34,089 nucleotides of DNA from contig CAISCU010000007.1 of NCBI GenBank assembly GCA_903883965.1, positions 1 through 34,089 of the forward strand. The letters are read 5' to 3'. Source of the DNA: an uncultured Bacteroidota bacterium. Its GTDB lineage: Bacteria > Bacteroidota > Bacteroidia > UKL13-3. Within the stretch, counting starts at the first letter, position 1. Each line of letters starts with the position of its first letter. A program made the position numbers and the translations under genes. The notes under the pieces were generated by a model that saw only the letters and a program-made list of their open reading frames with translations, was not told the DNA's origin and ran no database searches. Positions 21,089 through 30,617 of the stretch are shown here, in pieces.

Positions 21089-21162
21089 GGTTCCATAGCT
21101 CAGCTGGATAGAGCAATGGTTTTCTAAACCATGGGCCGCAGGTTCGAGTCCTGCTGGAACTA
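21089..21162 (+). tRNA. tRNA-Arg (anticodon TCT)
   Basis: A complete cloverleaf: acceptor GGTTCCA/TGGAACT (first pair is a G-U wobble), D stem GCTC/GAGC, anticodon stem ATGGT/ACCAT around loop TTTCTAA with anticodon TCT, five-base variable loop, T arm GCAGG-TTCGAGT-CCTGC. It decodes AGA. CCA is not encoded after A21162. The upstream bases ATTTGCATCCCC (21050-21061) match those after the leftward promoter at 77-106, suggesting a shared stable-RNA promoter type. Confidence 0.95.
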
Positions 21163-21166
21163 CGAA

Positions 21167-21196: not shown

Positions 21197-21590
21197 TTTT
21201 ATGGCTTGAAGTGAACTGATTGAATATTTTGTTTGAGGTTCACCTTGAATTGAGCCAACACACAATTGTTTTCCCCTACCCTTTTTACGGCTTGCATTCC
21301 AATACCCCTTAGGTTCATTCATACTTTCCATAAAATTTGCGGTGATTCGCATCTTTTTAATTTACTCTTTCTTAATGGTTTTATATTTGAATAGAGGCGA
21401 GTGATTTACCCAAACCTTCCACTGCTTTTAAAATTTTGTGAGCCTATGAAAGCAACTGTTCAAAAACTTTTGACAAAACCAAATGGGTTGAAACTACGAA
21501 AACCAAATTAAGGTACATGGGCTACAAGATGGGAATTGTGAAAATTCTTGTAAGACCCAATTGATAAAATCCATTTTACAAAGTTCGGTT
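21197..21590. other. Non-coding region between tRNA-Arg and the higBA locus
   Basis: No credible gene. It holds direct repeat copy 1 (21378-21464) and a 13-base copy of the tRNA 3' end with its flank (AACTACGAAAACC at 21492-21504, also at 21158-21170). Nothing else is recognisable. Confidence 0.6.
21378..21464 (+). repeat. Direct repeat copy 1, left of higBA
   Basis: About 87 bases similar to 22689-22773. The copies share a 26-base identical core (21417-21442, beginning TTCCACTGC and ending TTTGTGAG), further matches on both sides and one gap. The repeats are in the same orientation about 1.3 kb apart and bracket the toxin-antitoxin locus. Confidence 0.8.
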
Positions 21591-21614
21591 TATAAAAGAA
21601 CTTTTATACATTTG
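21591..21614 (+). promoter_or_regulatory. higBA promoter and candidate operator
   Basis: TATAAAAG-AA-CTTTTATA (21591-21608) is a perfect 8-base inverted repeat. It runs into the minus-7 box TACATTTG (21607-21614), 13 bases before the ATG at 21628. An outer inverted pair, TTTACAAA and TTTGTAAA (21576-21583 and 21611-21618), frames it. Antitoxins with XRE domains usually repress their own promoter, so this is the likely HigA-type binding site (inference). Confidence 0.6.
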
Positions 21615-21627
21615 TAAAGTCGTTGAT

Positions 21628-21974
21628 ATGCGAATTATTGGAAAGAGAATACTTTCAAAAATTAAAAAGAAAAACATAGGGAATAAAAAGCTGTGCACAG
21701 AAATTGACAGGTTAATGTTGGATTTAAAAAAAGTTCAATCCAAGAGAAACAAATCTAAAAGACATTAGAAACGATGCCAATTGTGTACATAGTGATGGAT
21801 TTTATTTTTTTTGATTTGCATCTTCATAGAACGCTTATATTGATTGAACTTGACGATGAAGGAGAAGCGACAATAGTGTGGGCAGGTACGCATCAAGAAT
21901 ATGAAGCAACATTTAAAAACAATAAAATAACCATTGAAAAATGGCTAAGACAAAAAGGGTACATCGCACCATGA
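21628..21974 (+). pseudogene. higB: HigB-family toxin gene, broken by two frameshifts
   Basis: Three consecutive frames together give one HigB-like toxin. Frame 1 from the ATG at 21628 reads MRIIGKRILSKIKKKNIGNK and ends in a stop near 21766. Frame 2 continues NPRETNLKDIRNDANCVHSD and GFYFF. Frame 3 continues DLHLHRTLILIELDDEG, then WAGTHQEYEATF to the stop at 21972-21974. Removing one A from the A7 run (21726-21732) and one T from the T8 run (21805-21812) restores a single open frame of about 114 codons. HigB toxins are mRNA interferases. The original C-terminus is well preserved, so inactivation is recent, or the indels are sequencing errors. The stop overlaps the antitoxin ATG (ATGA). Confidence 0.8.
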
Positions 21975-22540
21975 AAACACATTTTGATATAGAAAAAATA
22001 GTAGAAAAGGGCATTATCATCAATGAGTTAGATTATGACAGAGCGCTTATTGCTGACAGAAAACTAAGACTGCTTGCAAAGGACAGTCTTCATTTTAAAA
22101 ACTTAAGAACCAAACTACGCGATATTTTAGAACGCTATGAAAATGCTAAGTGGCGTGACATTGACAAAATAGATGCGCAACAACTTTCTGAAAGTGTAAA
22201 GTCTGAACAAATTGCCGAACAAGAAAGACAATTTATAGAAAACAGAAAACAATCCATTAGAAAAAAACTCAAAGAACTGGATTTAACACAAGAAAATTTG
22301 GCATTCATTTTAGGCCATAAAAGCAAAACCTATATGTCTGAACTGATGAATGGAATTAAACCCTTTACATTAAAAGATTTAATTATTATCAATAGGTTGC
22401 TAAACATTAAAATGGAGGTATTGATTCCAGCCTTCCTTTCAAAAGAAGACCAAATAAAAGTAAAAGAAGCAGTGCGTAAATTAGACAAACCCAAAGTAAA
22501 ATTAAACAGCAACAATTTAGTTACTGTGTTCATTCAATAG
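21971..22540 (+). CDS. higA: HigA-type antitoxin with XRE helix-turn-helix
   Basis: A 189-residue protein from the ATG at 21971, which overlaps the toxin stop as ATGA; an in-frame start at 21941 lies inside the toxin and is less likely. Residues about 1-95 are an alpha-helical, charged region, and about 96-155 form an XRE/Cro-type helix-turn-helix (LKELDLTQENLAFILGHKSK, then YMSELMNGIKPFTLKDLIII). The reading frame is intact although the partner toxin is broken. It would bind the toxin and repress the promoter at 21591-21614. The locus sits between 85-base direct repeats. Confidence 0.82.
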   Translation: MKTHFDIEKIVEKGIIINELDYDRALIADRKLRLLAKDSLHFKNLRTKLRDILERYENAKWRDIDKIDAQQLSESVKSEQIAEQERQFIENRKQSIRKKLKELDLTQENLAFILGHKSKTYMSELMNGIKPFTLKDLIIINRLLNIKMEVLIPAFLSKEDQIKVKEAVRKLDKPKVKLNSNNLVTVFIQ

Positions 22541-22946
22541 CACTATTTAAAAAGCAGCTTTCCAACATTGGCGGTTAGGTGCTTCAAGCAAGAAAATTTA
22601 GCGTGGTTTTAACACCCACTAGGCTGATACTGCGTAATAAAAAAACTAGCCATTTTTAGTAAACTTATTATTTACATTTTCATAAATAGTTTTATATTTA
22701 ATTCAAGCAGGTCATTTACCCAAACTTCCACTGCTTTTAAAATTTTGTGAGTTTATGAAAACAAGTATTCAAATACGTGTACAATGTGCGCATTAGCAAT
22801 CAATGATGAGATTGAGAAAACACAATGCCTATTTGATAATTTAATTTAAAAGTTGAATAAAAATAAACAGAAACAAACTTGCGTATATGCTGCTATTTGA
22901 GGAAATACTGAATAGGAAAAAGGGTGGAAATAGCGTGTATATGGGA
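22541..22946. other. Non-coding region between higA and the cassette array
   Basis: No convincing gene. It holds direct repeat copy 2 (22689-22773). A GTTAGGTGC at 22573-22581 looks like the right box of an attC site, but no matching left box is visible. A short ORF of 21 codons from 22784 has no recognisable product. Confidence 0.5.
22689..22773 (+). repeat. Direct repeat copy 2, right of higA
   Basis: The partner of 21378-21464; the 26-base identical core is at 22726-22751. The first halves differ more than the second halves, so the duplication is not recent. Confidence 0.8.
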
Positions 22947-22955
22947 GTTATGCGT
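22947..22955 (+). repeat. Left end of cassette 1 (attC right-box core GTTATGCGT)
   Basis: GTTATGCGT here is the exact reverse complement of the R'' box ACGCATAAC of the attC at the end of cassette 1 (24868-24876). In integron cassettes, recombination cuts between G and TT, leaving the TT-end on the cassette's left; in the circular form this end pairs with its own R'' box. The cut point is therefore 22947/22948. No full attC or attI is recognisable to its left. Confidence 0.7.
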
Positions 22956-23002
22956 CATTCTATGCAACACCAAAATCATCCAGCATTAAGGACAAAAAAT
23001 AC

Positions 23003-23010
23003 TAATTTTG
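23003..23010 (+). promoter_or_regulatory. Minus-7 box of cassette 1
   Basis: TAATTTTG is a perfect TAnnTTTG box, 18 bases before the ATG at 23029. It overlaps the upstream in-frame TTG at 23008, which therefore cannot be the start. No clear minus-33 TTG is seen. Confidence 0.6.
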
Positions 23011-23028
23011 CCACTCAATATAAGTAAA

Positions 23029-23940
23029 ATGGTTAAGACAATTTTTAAGGGACTAATTATTATAAGTTTACTATTGACAAAATCACAAGTAAGTGCTTGT
23101 GACGTTTGCGGATGTTCAATGGGTGGAACAAATTTGGGAATACTGCCACAGTTTCATAAAAACTTTATTGGAGTTCATTATTTTTACAGAGGTTTCTCAT
23201 CCGAACATACAATATTGGGGACAGAAACAAAATCCACTTCCCAAGAACTTTTCCAGACAACTGAATTAAGAGGAAGGTTTCACTTGAATAAGAGAGTTCA
23301 ACTTTTTGTTCTTTTACCAATTAACATCAACCAACAAACAGAAAATAGTGTAACAAGCACATTTACTGGATTAGGGGACATTTCAACTTTTGCTAATTAC
23401 AGTATATACAACAACGGAGACAGTTTAGGTAAAAAGTGGAAGCACAATTTACAACTTGGTGGTGGGATAAAGCTGCCAACAGGAAGTTACAAAAAACTGG
23501 ACGAGAACAATATTTTAAATCCAAATATTCAGACAGGCACAGGTTCTTTTGATATTTTAATAGATGCTATTTACACAGTTCGCTATAAAAAGTGGGGACT
23601 GAACAATACAGTTTTTTATCGTTTCAACACCACCAATTCAAACGATTTTAAATTTGGCAATCGCTTTACTTTAGCCACTAGTTTTTTCTATTGGGCAAAC
23701 ATAAAAGGCTATTCACTATTGCCAAGTATTGGAATCAATTATGAGAAGGCAGACAAAGACTTACATAATTCTTTTATAGTTGACCAAAGTGGAGGTAGTT
23801 CGCTTTTTACCACATACGGACTTGATTTTTACTACAAAAGTTTCACATTAGGTGTCAATTTTCAATTGCCAGTATTTCAAGACAACCCAATAACTCAAAG
23901 TAAATTAAAAATCGGTGCAACCTTACTTTATAATTTCTAA
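23029..23940 (+). CDS. Outer-membrane beta-barrel protein with N-terminal CDVCGC motif
   Basis: A 303-residue protein from the ATG at 23029. A signal peptide (MVKTIFKGLIIISLLLTKSQVSA) is followed directly by CDVCGCSMGG, then a beta-barrel-like region (FIGVHYFYRGFSSEH, VQLFVLLPININQQT, LQLGGGIKLPTGSYKK, FRFNTTNSNDFKFGNRF). Bacteroidota proteins with this mature N-terminus are annotated as outer-membrane transporters; the three Cys suggest metal binding near the surface (inference). It is the first gene of cassette 1, followed by a small Cys-rich protein and a His-rich lipoprotein, so a metal-related function of the set is plausible but unproven. Confidence 0.7.
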   Translation: MVKTIFKGLIIISLLLTKSQVSACDVCGCSMGGTNLGILPQFHKNFIGVHYFYRGFSSEHTILGTETKSTSQELFQTTELRGRFHLNKRVQLFVLLPININQQTENSVTSTFTGLGDISTFANYSIYNNGDSLGKKWKHNLQLGGGIKLPTGSYKKLDENNILNPNIQTGTGSFDILIDAIYTVRYKKWGLNNTVFYRFNTTNSNDFKFGNRFTLATSFFYWANIKGYSLLPSIGINYEKADKDLHNSFIVDQSGGSSLFTTYGLDFYYKSFTLGVNFQLPVFQDNPITQSKLKIGATLLYNF

Positions 23941-23963
23941 AACGGATAATTTAAATCAATAAT

Positions 23964-24344
23964 TTGAAACAAATAGTAACCATATTACTTGCTACTCTCA
24001 TTCTATTGCAACCATTCAGTAAGATATGTATTTATGTTTCTTTTAAAATTAACCAAGACCGTATAGCCAAAACGCTTTGTGTTCAAAAGGAAATAAAGAA
24101 CAACTGTTGTAAAGGAAAATGTCATTTAGAAAAGGAACTCAAAAAAGCAGATGAACAGCAACAGAAGCAACTTCCGCCATCGCTGAAAGAGAAATCAGAA
24201 GTGTTGTATTTTCAAAGTTTTCCGAAAAATAGTTTATTAAATGTCCAATTTAAATCATCAAAAGAAAAGCTAATTTGCTTTTATCATGTTTCCTATTCTT
24301 CATCCTACATTGGCGAGATTTTTAAACCGCCAAAATTGATTTGA
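23964..24344 (+). CDS. Small exported Cys-rich protein
   Basis: A 126-residue protein. The start is TTG at 23964: an in-frame stop lies four codons upstream and no ATG precedes the signal-like segment (KQIVTILLATLILLQPFSKICIYV). Residues about 47-56 form a NNCCKGKCHLEK motif with three Cys and one His, likely a metal site. I recognise the type as a small Bacteroidota family that occurs beside metal-linked barrel genes, but it has no established function. It starts 23 bases after the barrel gene and is probably co-transcribed with it. Confidence 0.6.
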   Translation: MKQIVTILLATLILLQPFSKICIYVSFKINQDRIAKTLCVQKEIKNNCCKGKCHLEKELKKADEQQQKQLPPSLKEKSEVLYFQSFPKNSLLNVQFKSSKEKLICFYHVSYSSSYIGEIFKPPKLI

Positions 24345-24381
24345 ACTTAAACAACCGGACATTAAATTATTAAAGTTAATC

Positions 24382-24397
24382 TACTCAACATTGAGTA
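24382..24397 (+). promoter_or_regulatory. Palindrome upstream of the lipoprotein gene
   Basis: TACTCAA-CA-TTGAGTA is a perfect 7-base inverted repeat with a 2-base centre, 45 bases before the ATG at 24442. A CTACTCA/TGAGTAG pair (24381-24387 and 24398-24404) extends the symmetry. It could be an operator or an RNA hairpin. No regulator gene lies in the same cassette. Confidence 0.4.
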
Positions 24398-24441
24398 TGA
24401 GTAGTCATTTCAAACAATTTTCACAAAATAAAATAAACAAA

Positions 24442-24846
24442 ATGCAAAATAAAATATTCATTGCAGCAATAGCTGCAACCATAGCCATAGCAAGTATTAG
24501 CTCTTGCAAAAAAGACGAAGTAAAAGACACAGAACAACCTGTAATCACACTCAATGAGCCAATGATGAATGACACAATTTCACTGGCAGTTGAAGACAGC
24601 GTTCATATTCAGTTTTCGGCAAGCGACAATGATGAACTTCATGATGTGGCTGTAAATATCACAAATGCAGGTGGAACAAATGTTTACACAAATTCAGCTG
24701 ACGTTGATGCAAAAACATATTCATTTCATCAACATTTCCACCCGACAGGAATTATAGGTGTTACTCAATTTACCTTAAAAATTGACGCATCAGACCATAA
24801 TGCTAATGCGGACAGCAAGACGGTGACATTTTATGTAAAACCATAA
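24442..24846 (+). CDS. Lipoprotein with DUF4625-like domain, His-rich
   Basis: A 134-residue protein from the ATG at 24442; an upstream TTG at 24391 lies in the palindrome and is rejected. It has a lipoprotein signal (MQNKIFIAAIAATIAIASIS) with Cys at SSC. The mature part is a beta-sandwich-like domain (TEQPVITLNEPMMND, HIQFSASDNDELHDVAVNI, FTLKIDASDHN) resembling DUF4625. SFHQHFHPTG carries three His, suggesting metal binding. It is the last gene of cassette 1, ending 21 bases before the attC. Confidence 0.65.
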   Translation: MQNKIFIAAIAATIAIASISSCKKDEVKDTEQPVITLNEPMMNDTISLAVEDSVHIQFSASDNDELHDVAVNITNAGGTNVYTNSADVDAKTYSFHQHFHPTGIIGVTQFTLKIDASDHNANADSKTVTFYVKP

Positions 24847-24867
24847 GACTGACAGGAAGAAGAACGA

Positions 24868-24996
24868 ACGCATAACAGCGGGTTTAAAGAAATTGGGGGT
24901 TAATTGAGCATTCTGCCTCGCATCAACATTTGTGGTAGCTTGAATGTTTTCTGATCCTAAATCCCCAACTTCTTAAACCCACAAAACGTTATCGGC
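24868..24996 (+). repeat. attC site 1, end of cassette 1
   Basis: R'' box ACGCATAAC (24868-24876) and R' box GTTATCGGC (24988-24996) frame a long imperfect stem. The arm GGGTTTAAAGAAATTGGGG (24880-24898) pairs with CCCCAACTTCTTAAACCC (24963-24980), apart from one unpaired A and one mismatch; extrahelical bases are a known attC feature. The cut is expected at 24988/24989. The central loop carries CAACATTTGTGGTA, shared with the other two sites. Confidence 0.8.
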
Positions 24997-25064
24997 AACC
25001 CTATGACGACACAGCAACCTTCAAACTGACAGACAAAAAACTTGTGCAGACGACTTAGTTTAAC

Positions 25065-25095
25065 TTCCTTTGTAAAAAATACCAGATAGTATCTT
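25065..25095 (+). promoter_or_regulatory. Promoter and operator of the tetR gene
   Basis: The minus-7-like box TTCCTTTG (25065-25072, one mismatch) is followed by AAAATACCAGATAGTATCTT (25076-25095), a partly palindromic site with an ATAC/GTAT core that matches the operator at 25701-25720 at 16 of 20 positions. It covers the expected transcription start and ends 2 bases before the ATG, so TetR would autorepress. Confidence 0.7.
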
Positions 25096-25097
25096 TT

Positions 25098-25688
25098 ATG
25101 AAAAAAGCCGAAGCAACACGACAGACCATTTTGCAGAAGTCCTTTGAACTTATTTATGCTAAGGGTTATCAAAACACAAGTATAGACGACATTCTTGCTA
25201 CAACACAAGTAACCAAAGGAGCTTTTTACTACCATTTCAAAAACAAAGACGAAATGGGAATTGCTATCATCAACGAACTGCTTAAACCTGCTCTGACAAG
25301 TGGTTTTAACGACCTTCTAAAAAGCAATGAGAACCCTTTAGATGCTATCTACCAATTGATGAACCACCTTTTGATGAAGAATGATTTTTTGAAAGTTGAA
25401 TACGGTTGTCCTGCTGCCAACTTCACACAGGAAATGACACCTTGGAATGAAGCATTCAGTATTGCCCTAAAAGAAATAACTCAACAATGGACAAAGGCAA
25501 TGACTTCCGCTATTGAAACTGGGAAAAAAAATGGATTTGTAAAGAGTGAAGCAAACGCCAAACAAGTTACCTTGTTCGTAACATCAGGTTACTGGGGCAT
25601 TCGGAATTTTGGCAAATTAGAGAATAGCAAAAAAGTGTATTCGCCATATTTAAAGGAACTTAAATCCTACCTTGACAACTTGAAATAA
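25098..25688 (+). CDS. TetR/AcrR-family transcriptional repressor
   Basis: A 196-residue protein. The N-terminal helix-turn-helix is complete (TRQTILQKSFELIYAKGYQN, TSIDDILATTQVTKGAFYYH, then FKNKDEMGIAI), the AcrR-type DNA-binding fold. The C-terminal ligand domain is about residues 50-196 with YGCPAANFTQEMTP; the ligand is unknown. It should bind the palindromes at 25076-25095 and 25701-25720 and control itself and the four genes after it. It lies 101 bases after the left end of cassette 2, within an attC-bounded unit. Confidence 0.88.
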   Translation: MKKAEATRQTILQKSFELIYAKGYQNTSIDDILATTQVTKGAFYYHFKNKDEMGIAIINELLKPALTSGFNDLLKSNENPLDAIYQLMNHLLMKNDFLKVEYGCPAANFTQEMTPWNEAFSIALKEITQQWTKAMTSAIETGKKNGFVKSEANAKQVTLFVTSGYWGIRNFGKLENSKKVYSPYLKELKSYLDNLK

Positions 25689-25700
25689 AATTTTTCACTA

Positions 25701-25735
25701 AACATACCACTTAGTATGTTTTTTAATTACCTTTG
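25701..25735 (+). promoter_or_regulatory. Operator and promoter of the cassette 2 membrane-protein operon
   Basis: AACATACCACTTAGTATGTT (25701-25720) is a perfect 7-base inverted repeat (AACATAC/GTATGTT) with a 6-base centre. It is followed by TACCTTTG (25728-25735), a perfect minus-7 box, 19 bases before the ATG at 25755. The operator covers the minus-33 side of the promoter, so bound repressor would block RNA polymerase. The same palindrome occurs before tetR. Confidence 0.8.
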
Positions 25736-25754
25736 CATCGTAAGCGAAAAAGCG

Positions 25755-26213
25755 ATGTATCAAATACTCACATTTTACCACAACTTTATGCGATGGCTTG
25801 TCTTGGCAAGTTTGCTATTTGCCATCTACAGAGCATACAAAGGATATTTCTCAAAAGCAACATTTTCCAAAATAGACAATGCAGTTAGACATTGGACAGC
25901 AACCATTGCACACGTTCAATTGATGATAGGAATGGTGCTTTATTTCCAAAGCCCAATTATCAAATACTTTATTACAAACTTTAAAGAAGCGATAAAGACT
26001 TTTGACTTATTATTCTTTGGACTTATTCACGGTTCACTAATGCTTACAGCAATTGTGATTATTACAATTGGTTCTGCAAAAGCAAAACGCAAACCAAAAG
26101 ACAATGAGAAATTTAAAACAATGCTGATTTGGTTTTCATTTGCCTTAATCATTATTTTCATTGCAATTCCCTGGCCATTTTCACCATTAGCAAACAGACC
26201 CTATTATAGATAA
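25755..26213 (+). CDS. Small four-span membrane protein (cytochrome B-like annotation)
   Basis: A 152-residue protein from the ATG at 25755; an in-frame ATG at 25716 lies within the operator, so it is rejected. There are about four membrane segments (FMRWLVLASLLFAIYRAY, ATIAHVQLMIGMVLYF, LLFFGLIHGSLMLTAIVIIT, TMLIWFSFALIIIFIAIPWP). His residues in segments 1-3 (YHNFMRW, IAHVQLM, LIHGSLM) could ligate haem, which fits the common cytochrome B annotation, but that is not proven. It is the first gene after the TetR-controlled promoter and is followed by a DUF3817 gene after 1 base. Confidence 0.65.
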   Translation: MYQILTFYHNFMRWLVLASLLFAIYRAYKGYFSKATFSKIDNAVRHWTATIAHVQLMIGMVLYFQSPIIKYFITNFKEAIKTFDLLFFGLIHGSLMLTAIVIITIGSAKAKRKPKDNEKFKTMLIWFSFALIIIFIAIPWPFSPLANRPYYR

Positions 26214-26214
26214 T

Positions 26215-26523
26215 ATGATAAACTTATTCAAAACAAAAATCGGACGACTTCGTCTAATTGGATACTTGGAAGGACTGTCTTTGTTAGTATTAATATTTAT
26301 TGCTGCTCCCATGAAACACATTTTTCATAACCCAGCCCTTTCAACATTACTTGGACCAATTCACGGAGCAATATTTTTGGTTTTTATGCTTAACACTATG
26401 AGTGTTGGTATTGAACAAAACTGGAAGTTCAAAACAACTACTTGGAAAATTCTTGTTGCCTGCTTCATCCCATTTGGCACATTCTATATTGACCACAAAA
26501 TTTTCAAAAACATACAAGAGTAA
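26215..26523 (+). CDS. DUF3817 integral membrane protein
   Basis: A 102-residue protein with three hydrophobic segments (LIGYLEGLSLLVLIFIAAPM, LLGPIHGAIFLVFMLNTM, WKILVACFIPFGTFYI). The GYLEGLSLLVL start and GPIHGAIFL are typical of DUF3817, a family whose function is unknown. It starts 1 base after the upstream stop, and its own stop overlaps the rhodanese ATG by one base (TAATG). Confidence 0.8.
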   Translation: MINLFKTKIGRLRLIGYLEGLSLLVLIFIAAPMKHIFHNPALSTLLGPIHGAIFLVFMLNTMSVGIEQNWKFKTTTWKILVACFIPFGTFYIDHKIFKNIQE

Positions 26524-26894
26524 TGAAAACATTTATAATAATTATTTCATCAATTTTAGTAATCTACATTGGTTATAGAACCTATCGTTTTGCAATGCTT
26601 TCTAACGGACTGGACAAGAAAATTGCCAATGGGGCAATTGTGTTAGATGTGCGAACTGTTGAGGAATATGCAACGGGACACATTGACGGCTCAATCAACA
26701 TTTCATTAGGGACAATTAGAGAAAGATACACCGAACTTGAGACAAGTAAAACATATATCACTTGCTGTTCTCACGGTTTGAGAAGTGTAAAAGTTGTATC
26801 ACTTCTAAAAGAACGAGGATTTAAAAATGTATTTAACGGTGGTGCTTGGATAGACCTTGAAAAAATAGTTAAAGAACAAAAAGCAAAGCAATGA
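26523..26894 (+). CDS. Membrane-anchored rhodanese-domain protein
   Basis: A 123-residue protein with an N-terminal membrane segment (FIIIISSILVIYIGY) and a single rhodanese domain. The active-site loop CCSHGLRS has the catalytic Cys82 in the CxxGxRS pattern; VLDVRTVEEYATGHIDGSIN is the usual N-terminal signature. It probably transfers sulfane sulfur at the membrane, perhaps in sulfide or persulfide detoxification; this is inference. The downstream gene starts in its stop (ATGA). Confidence 0.85.
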   Translation: MKTFIIIISSILVIYIGYRTYRFAMLSNGLDKKIANGAIVLDVRTVEEYATGHIDGSINISLGTIRERYTELETSKTYITCCSHGLRSVKVVSLLKERGFKNVFNGGAWIDLEKIVKEQKAKQ

Positions 26895-27100
26895 TTTTTG
26901 TTTTCAAAACAAATGTGTCGCCAGACAACTTAGAAACCCTTCAACCACTCCTTGACAAACATTTACCTAATTCAAAATGGAGTTTCGACCTTGATGACTG
27001 CGACAATATATTTCGCATTGACAGTCAATTGCAAATAGCAGAAACAATAATCAAACTTATTCAAGACAACGGCTACAGGTGTGAAGAGTTGCCCGACTGA
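26891..27100 (+). CDS. Small ferredoxin-fold-like protein
   Basis: A 69-residue protein of unknown function. The pattern (FVFKTNVSPDNLETLQPLLD, then WSFDLDDCDNIFRID, IIKLIQDNGYRCEEL) suggests a beta-alpha-beta fold like heavy-metal-associated domains but lacks the CxxC metal site. Two single Cys are present. It is the last gene of the TetR operon, ending 15 bases before attC site 2. Confidence 0.6.
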   Translation: MIFVFKTNVSPDNLETLQPLLDKHLPNSKWSFDLDDCDNIFRIDSQLQIAETIIKLIQDNGYRCEELPD

Positions 27101-27115
27101 ACCGAAAGAAGGGCA

Positions 27116-27251
27116 GCCGATAACAGCGGTTTTGCGTAATGGCAGGTGACGTGCTTCGTATGAACATTTGTGGTATATTTGAACAGTGTGCTTCGTATCA
27201 AGTTTTGTGGTAAAAATCCGCCACTGCGCCAAGCGCCAAACCGTTGTAGCC
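27116..27251 (+). repeat. attC site 2, end of cassette 2
   Basis: R'' GCCGATAAC (27116-27124) and R' GTTGTAGCC (27243-27251) frame an imperfect stem (CGGTTTTGCG against CGCCAAACCG). R'' pairs perfectly with the left end of cassette 2 (GTTATCGGC at 24988-24996) but poorly with the adjacent R'. The loop holds a 37-base tandem duplication beginning GTGCTTCGTAT at 27151 and 27188. TATATTTG at 27174-27181 is a perfect minus-7 box that could serve cassette 3. Confidence 0.8.
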
Positions 27252-27291
27252 AACCTAAGAACCTAAAATTTAATAGCTTAAATTAGACAAA

Positions 27292-27642
27292 ATGACAGAC
27301 AATTTTAACGTTGATGAAATCCTAAACAAGAACCGACTTGACACCCAAAATTACATTAATAAAATGGTAGCTTTTAACAAACAGCTGACATTTTCAGATG
27401 CTAAAGCAAACAGTTTAATAGCGGACGATTTATTAGAAATGGTAAATAAACATAGATATCTGCACGGAGAAAACATCCGTGATCTTTTCATTACCTGTAT
27501 AAATCAGATTAAAAAACAATATTTAATTGCTGACACACCTAATAAAGTGAGAGAAATATCAAATTCACTAGTCACTTTTATGGCCTCAGAAGCCACTATA
27601 TTAAACAATGGAGGCTATAGCGCGATAAGTATTAATACCTAA
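27292..27642 (+). CDS. Hypothetical protein, cassette 3
   Basis: A 116-residue, mostly helical soluble protein (DILNKNRLDTQ-like start; LIADDLLEMVNKHRYLHGEN, then FITCINQIKKQYLIADTPNK). I do not recognise the family. It starts 41 bases after the attC 2 right box and is followed by a WYL-like gene after 38 bases. No signal peptide or membrane span. Confidence 0.6.
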   Translation: MTDNFNVDEILNKNRLDTQNYINKMVAFNKQLTFSDAKANSLIADDLLEMVNKHRYLHGENIRDLFITCINQIKKQYLIADTPNKVREISNSLVTFMASEATILNNGGYSAISINT

Positions 27643-27680
27643 CTTATATACTAAAAAAACGACTCATTAACTAAATTATT

Positions 27681-28037
27681 ATGACACCTAAAGAACGACA
27701 AATTGCTGAGATTTTAACTACTGCTATAAAAGGAAATAATTTGATAGAGTTCAAATACGACAATGAATATAGGACTGTAGAACCTTATTTATTTGGTGAG
27801 TTATATAGTGTGAATCAAACACATGAACAAGAAGGAAAATATGCATTAAGGGCTTGGCTTGTAAGTGGGTTTTCAAGTTTACCTGTCGACATCAGAACAG
27901 GTGACCGATGGAGAAAATATGAACTAAAAAGAATTATGGAACTTACAATCCTAAACGAGAGATATAAAATAATACGACCATTGTATAACCCCAATGACAA
28001 AGATTTTAAAAGAATTAATTATCGTATTGATGTATAA
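27681..28037 (+). CDS. WYL-like domain protein, stand-alone
   Basis: A 118-residue soluble protein. The pattern (NNLIEFKYDNEYRTVEPYLF, then LRAWLVSGFSSLPVDIRTGD, RWRKYELKRIMELTIL) resembles the SH3-like WYL domain, which occurs in regulators and often near defence systems and usually binds nucleic acid or a small ligand. A helix-turn-helix is absent. The identification is by pattern only. It is the second gene of cassette 3, 34 bases before attC site 3. Confidence 0.55.
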   Translation: MTPKERQIAEILTTAIKGNNLIEFKYDNEYRTVEPYLFGELYSVNQTHEQEGKYALRAWLVSGFSSLPVDIRTGDRWRKYELKRIMELTILNERYKIIRPLYNPNDKDFKRINYRIDV

Positions 28038-28071
28038 ATAATAATATATCCATTTCTACACGAAAAAGGCT

Positions 28072-28190
28072 GGCTATAACAGCACCTACCCAAAAGGCGG
28101 GGTTTAGTTTCGCTGATTTTCAATTCGTGTTCCAAAGACAGTTTTGTGGTAAAAGTCCCGCCCTTCTTGAAACCGCCAAACGTTATAGCC
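28072..28190 (+). repeat. attC site 3, end of cassette 3
   Basis: R'' GGCTATAAC (28072-28080) and R' GTTATAGCC (28182-28190) are perfect reverse complements. The stem arms AAAAGGCGGG and CCCGCCCTTCTT pair with an unpaired base, as attC sites typically do. The loop carries CAGTTTTGTGGTAAAAG, the same kind of motif as in the other two sites. Confidence 0.8.
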
Positions 28191-28267
28191 ATTTTAGGAC
28201 GACAGTTCCACAGACGACAGACCGACCAAAATTTAAACAAATCAACATCAAACTATTTTATTACTTC
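28191..28267. other. Region after attC 3, possible left end of a lost fourth cassette
   Basis: Following TTATAGCC, the sequence (TTTTAGGACGACAGTTCC, then CAGACGACAGACCGACC) resembles the left ends of other cassettes, such as CTATGACGACACAGC after attC 1. No gene is present before the convergent stop at 28268, so a fourth cassette may have lost its content. Weakly supported. Confidence 0.35.
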
Positions 28268-30475
28268 TCACCTTAACAATGTAACCGTTCCGTAAGCAGT
28301 TTTTGTTTGTTCTGAGGGGAATTGGTAGTTGATTAAATACACATACACTCCACTCGAACAATCTACACCTTTGAATTTACCATCCCATTTATTTGATGGG
28401 TTAGTGGTACTAAAAATGCGTTCGCCCCATCTGTTAAAAACTAAGCATTCATACTGCGCGTAAGTGCAATTGGCGAGTGGGTATAATTCGTCATTTAAGC
28501 CATCTCCATTGGGAGTAAATACATTTGGAACCACCAACTGACAAGATTCTACGTTTGTATCACAATTGATTACCGATAGGGTCTTGTACAAGGTATCTAT
28601 ACCGCAAGAAAAATTAACAATTGCACGAATGCGGTAACTACCCTTTACTGAAAATAAATGTAACGGAGCAAAAGCATTTGAACTGTTATTGGTGGCACTT
28701 AATGGGTCATCAAAGTTCCAAGTAACAGATGAAAATGTATTGTTGGTAATTACCGAAAACTGAGTGCCATTTTGAAGGCATGAATCTAAAGTAGCAATGC
28801 TACCCTTGCAGCATTGCCCTATTTGCAACCGTCTACAAATGGTTGTTGCACTTGATGCACCTGGTTCTTTAAAACTCACACAAACATTGTATTCACCTGC
28901 AGAAGCAAACAAATGGGTTGGAAACGGAGAGGGACTGAGGCCTGTAATGGTAACTGTGTCATTAACGCCACTTGATTTGTCATCAAAACTCCAAAAGAAA
29001 TAAGGTGAATTGCTAGTTCCTACTGCTTGAAATGCAATACTGGCAGGCAGTGTACAGGTATCTCCTACTAATTTTATTCCTGTGATACTTGGTGTGGTAA
29101 CATTGTTACAATCAATGATGGATAAGCCAGGCAAAAACAATGTATCTGTGCCACATGCATTGCTTAGGATTGCCAGCACATTGTAATTCCCAATTTTTGA
29201 AAATACATGACTAGAGCTAAAACCAACTGCTGTATTATTGGCTCCAGAACTGGGGTCTCCAAAGTTCCACGTAACTCCTGTAATATTGTTGGTATCAGAT
29301 ATTGAAAACCGCGTATTGTTTCCAACACATGTATCGGAGAAAAGGATGGCATTTGTACTGGAATTGGGTTGGTCATTGGCGTAATAGATCCATTTGGGCA
29401 AACCGTAACCTCCACCACCACTCAGGTTGGTGATAACATTTTGTTGAAATCCGCAAGCAGCTCCTAATTGATTGGGGCAATTGATGACATCTATACCACC
29501 TGAATTGATATAAACCTTATCATCTGAGGCCAATTGCATGGAGGCAGGCTGAGCAAATCCGGTTGAAATTTGGTAAACAGAATTTTGTATAGCCGCAGCT
29601 GTTGTTTGAGAAATGTCGTATTGTAAAATGGCTTGCAAATTGCTGATGTATAAAACCTTTCCATTGGGTGAAAACTCAACTCCATAAATAATGGGGCTTG
29701 GCACATTGTATTTCCAAGCAATTACATTAGACACTTTACCTGTTGCATTATCAAAATCAAACAATTCCATGGTTGAAGTAAACAACTCACCCATGGCCAA
29801 TTTGTTAAATTGTCTATTGATTTTCAGGTGACCTGCTCCATTACCTTGGGTAGCGCCTAATTTAGAAACAACCGGATTGTTTTGGATACCACTTTCACTC
29901 ACTTTGAACGCATAAAAACTATTCCCCAAATTGTCGTGAGTAAGCAACCAATAACTTTTTTGATCAGATGCAGGAACAACTTCAAGTTTTTCAGATGTGG
30001 TTTGAAAGAGTGAAATGTTTTTTTGACCAGCTACAATGTCTCCTAAACCTGCATTCAAATTCATGTCTACAATGCTATACCTAATACCATTACTTGAAGA
30101 CTGCTCGTCTATTGTTACTAGGTAATACAAGTTGTTACTGCTTGGCTTGGGTATAATGACTGCTGCTGTGGTAGACGACAAAAGAGAGGGTGTTCCGCCC
30201 AATAAGCCACTTCCATTTGGCATAATTTGGTTGTTTGCATCCCATACATTGATGCCATTTGTATAAAACAACAATGCACCTGTTTTTCTATCAGCAATTG
30301 AAGCACTACCCTCTGCAGTTGACAAGAGAGCACCAGATACATTGCTAGGAGGTATTGTGTTGAAATCTATACCGCCACCATTGCCAAAACGCCATTGGTT
30401 GTTTTGCTTTTGAGCTATTGCATTGAAACAAATGGGCAAGGTAATGAACAATAGGATGAACCTAACTATTTTCAT
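28268..30475 (-). CDS. Secreted PKD/beta-propeller protein with type B T9SS sorting domain
   Basis: A 735-residue exported protein with signal peptide MKIVRFILLFITLPICFNAIA. Residues about 20-365 look like a beta-propeller (NNQWRFGNGGGIDFNT, LYYLVTIDEQSSSNG, VEFSPNGKVLYISNLQ). Three PKD-like modules follow at about 380-640 (ITGVTWNFGDPSSGANN, then FFWSFDDKSSG, SVTWNFDDPLSATNN). The C-terminus (VVPNVFTPNGDGLNDELYPL, YECLVFNRWGERIFST) is a gliding motility-associated CHU_C/type B T9SS sorting domain. The product should be carried to the surface by the type IX secretion system; no catalytic site is visible. Confidence 0.88.
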   Translation of the reverse strand: MKIVRFILLFITLPICFNAIAQKQNNQWRFGNGGGIDFNTIPPSNVSGALLSTAEGSASIADRKTGALLFYTNGINVWDANNQIMPNGSGLLGGTPSLLSSTTAAVIIPKPSSNNLYYLVTIDEQSSSNGIRYSIVDMNLNAGLGDIVAGQKNISLFQTTSEKLEVVPASDQKSYWLLTHDNLGNSFYAFKVSESGIQNNPVVSKLGATQGNGAGHLKINRQFNKLAMGELFTSTMELFDFDNATGKVSNVIAWKYNVPSPIIYGVEFSPNGKVLYISNLQAILQYDISQTTAAAIQNSVYQISTGFAQPASMQLASDDKVYINSGGIDVINCPNQLGAACGFQQNVITNLSGGGGYGLPKWIYYANDQPNSSTNAILFSDTCVGNNTRFSISDTNNITGVTWNFGDPSSGANNTAVGFSSSHVFSKIGNYNVLAILSNACGTDTLFLPGLSIIDCNNVTTPSITGIKLVGDTCTLPASIAFQAVGTSNSPYFFWSFDDKSSGVNDTVTITGLSPSPFPTHLFASAGEYNVCVSFKEPGASSATTICRRLQIGQCCKGSIATLDSCLQNGTQFSVITNNTFSSVTWNFDDPLSATNNSSNAFAPLHLFSVKGSYRIRAIVNFSCGIDTLYKTLSVINCDTNVESCQLVVPNVFTPNGDGLNDELYPLANCTYAQYECLVFNRWGERIFSTTNPSNKWDGKFKGVDCSSGVYVYLINYQFPSEQTKTAYGTVTLLR

Positions 30476-30617
30476 AATGACTTATACTACAAATTGCTAC
30501 TATTTTCTTTTAATAATTTTTAACAACGATGTACGCCTATTGTTCTAAATTTAAATAAATCGTTCGTATTTTCGATTGATCATTTACCGATTTTTTGTTT
30601 TAATTGACCCATCTACC

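Follow-up and report, generated by a model that had tools for sequence, protein, structure and literature searches.

The window analysed in this work, viz. the whole stretch of 34,089 nucleotides of DNA, very probably contains the integrase-deleted remnant of an integron from a separate, Bacteroidia-specific lineage whose integrase is not an IntI protein. The related genomes show, as their sequences are read here, that much of the class Bacteroidia carries integrons apparently run by a recombinase without the domain that has been supposed to define integron integrases. In an intact integron of this kind, a non-IntI tyrosine recombinase would join one folded attC strand of a circular cassette to the double-stranded attI at G/TT. 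Due to this recombination between the attC of a circular cassette and attI, each cassette would bring its own R'' box, and the R' box beside each R'' would belong to the next cassette. If the integrase is lost, the array would be frozen unless an integrase were supplied in trans.

Cassettes and attC sites in the window

The array consists of three cassettes on the forward strand, bounded by the three attC-like sites that the initial annotation had described; the R'' and R' boxes are found at these positions and the stems between them are folded and covarying. Cassette 1 (22948-24988, 2,041 bp) has the left end GTTATGCGT at 22947 and holds ORFs at 23029-23940, 23964-24344 and 24442-24846, the last of which is DUF4625-like; its attC (24868-24996, 97.4 bits) has the R'' box ACGCATAAC at 24868 and the R' box GTTATCGGC at 24988. 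Cassette 2 (24989-27243, 2,255 bp) encodes a TetR-type regulator (25098-25688), a membrane protein (25716-26213), a DUF3817 protein (26215-26523), a rhodanese (26523-26894) and a small ORF (26891-27100), and its attC (27116-27251, 108.1 bits) carries R'' GCCGATAAC at 27116 and R' GTTGTAGCC at 27243. Cassette 3 (27244-28182, 939 bp), with ORFs at 27292-27642 and 27681-28037, ends in the last attC of the array (28072-28190, 73.3 bits; R'' GGCTATAAC at 28072, R' GTTATAGCC at 28182). Integron cassettes usually hold a single gene; three ORFs are present in cassette 1 and five in cassette 2. Classical attC sites have R'' and R' boxes and a palindromic stem and are 57-142 nt long, and the sites in the window, with lengths of 129, 136 and 119 nt, agree with them in boxes, stem and length, while a small number of related sites are longer (up to about 156 nt).

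The scores given above are from a covariance model (R1) built from 31 aligned sites, the three window sites included, which was used in place of a simple pattern that lost diverged sites. The window sites are more than a chance occurrence: by this model they score 108, 97 and 73 bits and stand far above the next match in the window, which at 17.8 bits is the reverse strand of the first site. In the 31 sites, 89% of the stem cells are paired, compared with 69% after shuffling and 31-41% in slid controls, and the covariation test counted 135 double-changed stem cells versus 47. A search of the window against Rfam found no attC family, and the folding energies of the top and bottom strands gave no clear preferred strand for the three window sites.

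If the cassettes have passed through a circle, then the R'' box at the right end of a cassette should match the left end of the same cassette. As had been noted from the sequence, this is the case for cassettes 1 and 2, in each of which R'' agrees with the cassette's own left end at 9/9 positions and the adjacent R' does not match. For cassette 3 the reported agreement with its own left end (8/9) is likewise present; however, its adjacent R' matches at 9/9, and due to this the cassette is uninformative for the own-end test. The same pattern is seen in related arrays, where the cassette's own left end is identical to R'' at 6/6 variable positions in 88 of 118 consecutive site pairs (50/72 and 38/46 in the two sets), whereas the adjacent R' is identical at 6/6 in 3 pairs (3 and 0, respectively), a rate near the approximately 2% expected at random. 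As five of the six variable positions lie outside the covariance model, the way in which the sites were found has little influence on the test. The own-end rule, as read from these sequences, is general in related arrays and is the expected signature of cassettes passing through a circle; the window thus holds tandem cassettes bounded by attC sites with an R'' that appears to derive from the circular cassette, and the earlier reading of an integron-type array with a logic of circular exchange is supported.

The attI site and the remains of an integrase gene

At the left end of the array lies an attI core (22938-22955, forward strand), TATATGGGA-G/TTATGCGT, with the cut at G/TTA, and the G at 22947 immediately precedes the left end of cassette 1. 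In its position and in the motif TATA(A/T)NNNAG/TTA it is like the attI of relatives (19/19), which are independently placed by a 9/9 cassette-end test beside an integrase locus as the entry point, and it is the same as the attI of G003, a genome of the same genus, up to G/TTAT. Both ends of an integrase gene precede it on the forward strand. The 5' remnant (22669-22776) consists of the leader and the first codons (MKTSIQ..., then a stop) and is 76% identical to the intact leader in G003 (L126), while the 3' remnant (22815-22946) comprises the last approximately 14 codons, in degenerate form, and the spacer to attI. The sequence 22815-22951 shows 86% identity to a part of G003 (contig C21) in which a full-length tyrosine recombinase gene ends and is followed by attI. 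A gene body of about 1 kb is deleted between 22776 and 22815, so that of the integrase gene, which is intact in relatives, the ends alone are left in the window; a deletion by misassembly between repeated copies of the leader could in principle account for this. A leader with a few codons and no integrase body occurs in three copies in the genome, viz. 21360-21467 and 22669-22776 in the window and G000:C33:1532-1641. The first of these (forward strand), made up of the promoter region and few codons, is 83% identical to 22669-22776 and 77% identical to the G003 leader, and these bodiless copies may be either relics of decay or a promoter element that has been repeated.

The window was reported to be without intI, and indeed no integrase gene is present in it, nor was intI or an integrase of the clade described below found elsewhere in the assembly. 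With three attC sites and no integrase found, the array may be a CALIN as the IntegronFinder models define it (two or more attC sites with no nearby integrase). However, the designation as a CALIN-type array is correct only in part, as attI and the ends of the integrase gene are present and the parent lineage was probably not IntI-based.

Distinguishing characteristics of the recombinase clade

The intact enzymes in relatives are tyrosine recombinases, with invariant R, H, R, H and Y columns, the R, HxxR and Y residues and a PF00589 match of 143 bits, and the clade that they form lies outside the IntI family, as the IntI domain is missing and a further domain is present at the N-terminus. Integron integrases have so far been defined by one extra domain (PMC9668308). 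In the IntI model TIGR02249 (cut-off 265 bits) the clade reaches 197 and 215 bits, in two split stretches, versus 390-489 bits for true IntI proteins, and it has no counterpart of residues 202-242 of IntI4 (2a3v), the additional domain of about 40 residues. The interval from KGxKDR to LRH is 60-61 aa in the clade versus 67-68 in most Xer proteins. In the phylogenetic tree, IntI forms its own clade (100/100) and the Bacteroidia clade branches outside it, within one larger group that includes IntI and archaeal XerA-like enzymes and is apart from XerC/XerD. The best family model is NF040815 (archaeal XerA-type; 220-231 bits, cut-off 220), and the closest solved sequences are 4a8e and 5hxy. An AlphaFold model of the integrase (pLDDT 86) has its best structural match in 2a3v, the V. 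cholerae IntI bound to folded attC (TM 0.60/0.69). The N-terminal domain is separate in this model (pLDDT 92) and did not give a substantial match in Pfam; the structural similarities found for it (YciH, E 0.03; HARP of SMARCAL1, 0.05; XPB, about 0.2) are no more than suggestive of a HARP/XPB-like fold.

The attC sites differ from the classical type as well. In classical attC sites the R''-L'' arm carries two or three extrahelical bases. Bacteroidia attC sites do not have these: the difference in arm length is 0 in 28 of the 31 sites, and the unpaired spacer measures 1 versus 5 nt in 31/31. The unpaired bases of the stems had been taken to be like those of known attC sites, but their arrangement is different and the asymmetry of extrahelical bases is absent. 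In the VCR of V. cholerae the arms are 34 versus 31 and the extrahelical bases fit into pockets of IntI (PMC2727003). The absence of the IntI domain and the absence of extrahelical bases fit each other, and they may be related as cause and effect. A candidate reader of the folded attC without the IntI domain would be the N-terminal domain with its predicted HARP/XPB-like fold. We see an even chance that this is a second, Bacteroidia integron lineage in the full sense, with its own integrase, attI and attC, in which the folded single-stranded attC is read by the N-terminal HARP/XPB-like domain together with the asymmetric spacer, in replacement of an IntI domain reading extrahelical bases.

These results bear upon the possibility that the window is a CALIN of a classical integron, whose cassettes were moved by a true IntI that has since been lost or acts from elsewhere. 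The tandem attC cassettes and the absence of an integrase gene from the window agree with this, and CALINs, which are frequent, are regarded as degraded integrons (PMC9024848). However, this explanation is improbable, as the arms of the attC sites lack the asymmetry of extrahelical bases that IntI uses (PMC2727003), the attI in the window is joined to the remains of a non-IntI integrase, and it is the non-IntI clade that adjoins the arrays, with attI in between. Further, a classical IntI over the cut-off is present in 1 of 247 genomes of the class (G201:C40:3592-4530, L227) and in 1 of 64 genomes of the family (G044, L056). The latter was discarded: it is surrounded by transposase-like fragments, its C-terminal part is encoded in a different frame, and the stretch examined contains no attC of this kind.

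Integrase loci in related genomes

The integrases of the clade are closely tied to attC arrays and to attI. The 40 loci of the clade contain 62 attC sites, every one of which lies downstream of the integrase and on its strand; in the loci of named genomes this holds for 25/26 attC sites, and in Algoriphagus ornithinivorans DSM 15282 the integrase, attI and attC sites follow one another in this order. In 38 loci of other tyrosine recombinases, true IntI included, no attC site was found. A GTT matching R'' at 9/9 is present within 190 nt of the integrase stop in 21 of the 23 loci with downstream attC, mostly at 85-103 nt, and TATA(A/T)NNNAG/TTA is common to 19 of these attI sites, while in a minority of loci the 9/9 test found no attI. 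A fuzzy motif scan for attI mixed in false positions, and attI was fixed by the 9/9 test used alone. In 10 of the 19 attI loci the element TAnnTTTG, the -7 box of Bacteroidota promoters, occurs 63-89 nt upstream of the cut point, compared with 0.6 by shuffling, and it may serve as the cassette promoter. At least 9 MAG contigs break off at attI, 37-135 nt beyond the integrase stop, as expected if the arrays vary there. In the subgroup of the window, the integrase gene and the array are on one strand, and the gene precedes attI, with its 3' end about 90-100 nt from the cut point; a divergent layout like that of classical integrons, with the integrase on the strand opposite to the array, is seen in L235, L236 and L247, and also in L234, L246 and L249, and these members have the same attI motif where attI has been located. 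Two members of the clade (L168 and L182) are in MAGs labelled Undinarchaeales and Spirochaetia, which could reflect transfer or a binning error.

In a sample of 247 Bacteroidia genomes, drawn evenly across the class and consisting mostly of draft MAGs, the attC type is present in 177, the integrase clade in 126 and both in 117 (Fisher p = 8e-15). The link is not one to one, as 60/247 genomes have attC with no detected integrase; these cases may be due to loss in assembly, to decay or to an integrase acting in trans. Within the family, 63 of 64 genomes have similar attC sites, and in the single-contig genome G023 they are scattered across the chromosome. The genome of the window has about seven more attC sites on other contigs (G000:C40, L036, and G000:C46, L037), with no integrase of the clade.

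Based on these loci, it is very doubtful that the cassettes are moved by the host's chromosomal XerC/XerD, with the adjoining recombinase as a passenger. All the family genomes searched contain Xer-like enzymes, and other elements do use Xer; however, no attC site was found in 19 Xer control regions (a further one, L135, proved to be an attC array and was left out of the count), attI lies at a fixed distance from a dedicated integrase, and it is the integrase clade that co-occurs with attC at the above significance.

Apparent exchange of cassettes between genomes

The initial annotation had looked to related genomes for differences exactly at the cut points, and such a difference is seen in G003, which has the leader, tail and attI in common with the window and from G/TT onward a different first cassette. 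A homologue of cassette 1 in G010 (84%) is alike exactly to the end of R'' ACGCATAAC and different thereafter, and the left end GTTATGCGT is also present; in this homologue (L046, G010:C227) a different short palindrome replaces the attC stem just after R''. The second ORF of cassette 3 is 88% identical to an ORF located directly after an attI-like site in G009. It is hardly credible that the palindromes are ordinary repeats, mobile or structural (REP- or MITE-like elements, or terminators), which lie between genes by chance. They do occur in many genomes of the class and are scattered over the G023 chromosome, but from such repeats one would not expect 6/6 own-end identity in 88/118 pairs, the same orientation throughout an array, a start that is fixed at attI next to an integrase, or a first cassette that is exchanged precisely at G/TT.

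Relationship to known integrons and significance

The Bacteroidia integrons share with IntI integrons, both the mobile classes and chromosomal ones such as that of Vibrio cholerae, an attI followed by tandem attC cassettes, the G/TT cut, pairing of R'' with the left end of its own cassette, attC stems that fold and covary, and an integrase adjoining attI. They differ in having an integrase without the additional domain and with an extra N-terminal domain, attC arms of equal length with a spacer of 1 and 5 nt, and the attI motif described above; in addition, the integrase gene is often co-oriented and upstream of attI and the cassettes are often multi-gene. With CALIN elements the window shares its three attC sites and the lack of an integrase gene, whereas it differs from them in keeping attI and both ends of the deleted gene and, probably, in a parent that was not IntI-based. 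The archaeal XerA-type enzymes provide the best family model and the closest solved sequences for the clade, but the Bacteroidia enzymes have the N-terminal domain and adjoin attI and cassette arrays.

A survey with IntegronFinder 2.0 counted only a single complete integron among the Bacteroidetes, that of Salinibacter (PMC9024848), and our search of openly licensed papers found no description of the Bacteroidia lineage, which is apparently undescribed. Because the recombinase is without the supposed defining domain, standard surveys probably miss these integrons or count them as orphan arrays. The integrase clade is found in half of the 247 Bacteroidia genomes and the matching attC in 72%. 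If the integrase works, then a major system of cassette exchange in a dominant phylum has been overlooked and some apparently orphan arrays gain a parent; it also becomes testable how a folded attC is read when extrahelical bases and the IntI domain are both absent, and whether the IntI domain is a later gain. If there is indeed a second lineage, many integrase-less arrays of Bacteroidota would be working integrons of this lineage or its relics.

Location of the probable integron remnant

The remnant lies within an insert whose left border is a tRNA-Arg (tct) gene (21089-21163, forward strand). In G003 the gene immediately after the tRNA-Arg (tct) is the orthologue of that at 30576 in the window, and the insert of about 9.3 kb (21200-30500 in the window) is absent from this locus. 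An array fixed in relatives, with no empty sites, had been named as evidence against cassette exchange, and this is not what is seen, as G003 differs at the first cassette and is without the whole insert. The integron platform itself may change its place; the integron of G003 is located beside a pyrH-like gene instead. The insert also holds two small genes (21774-22540, forward strand), which by the appearance of their sequences are toxin-antitoxin-like, the second resembling an HTH regulator.
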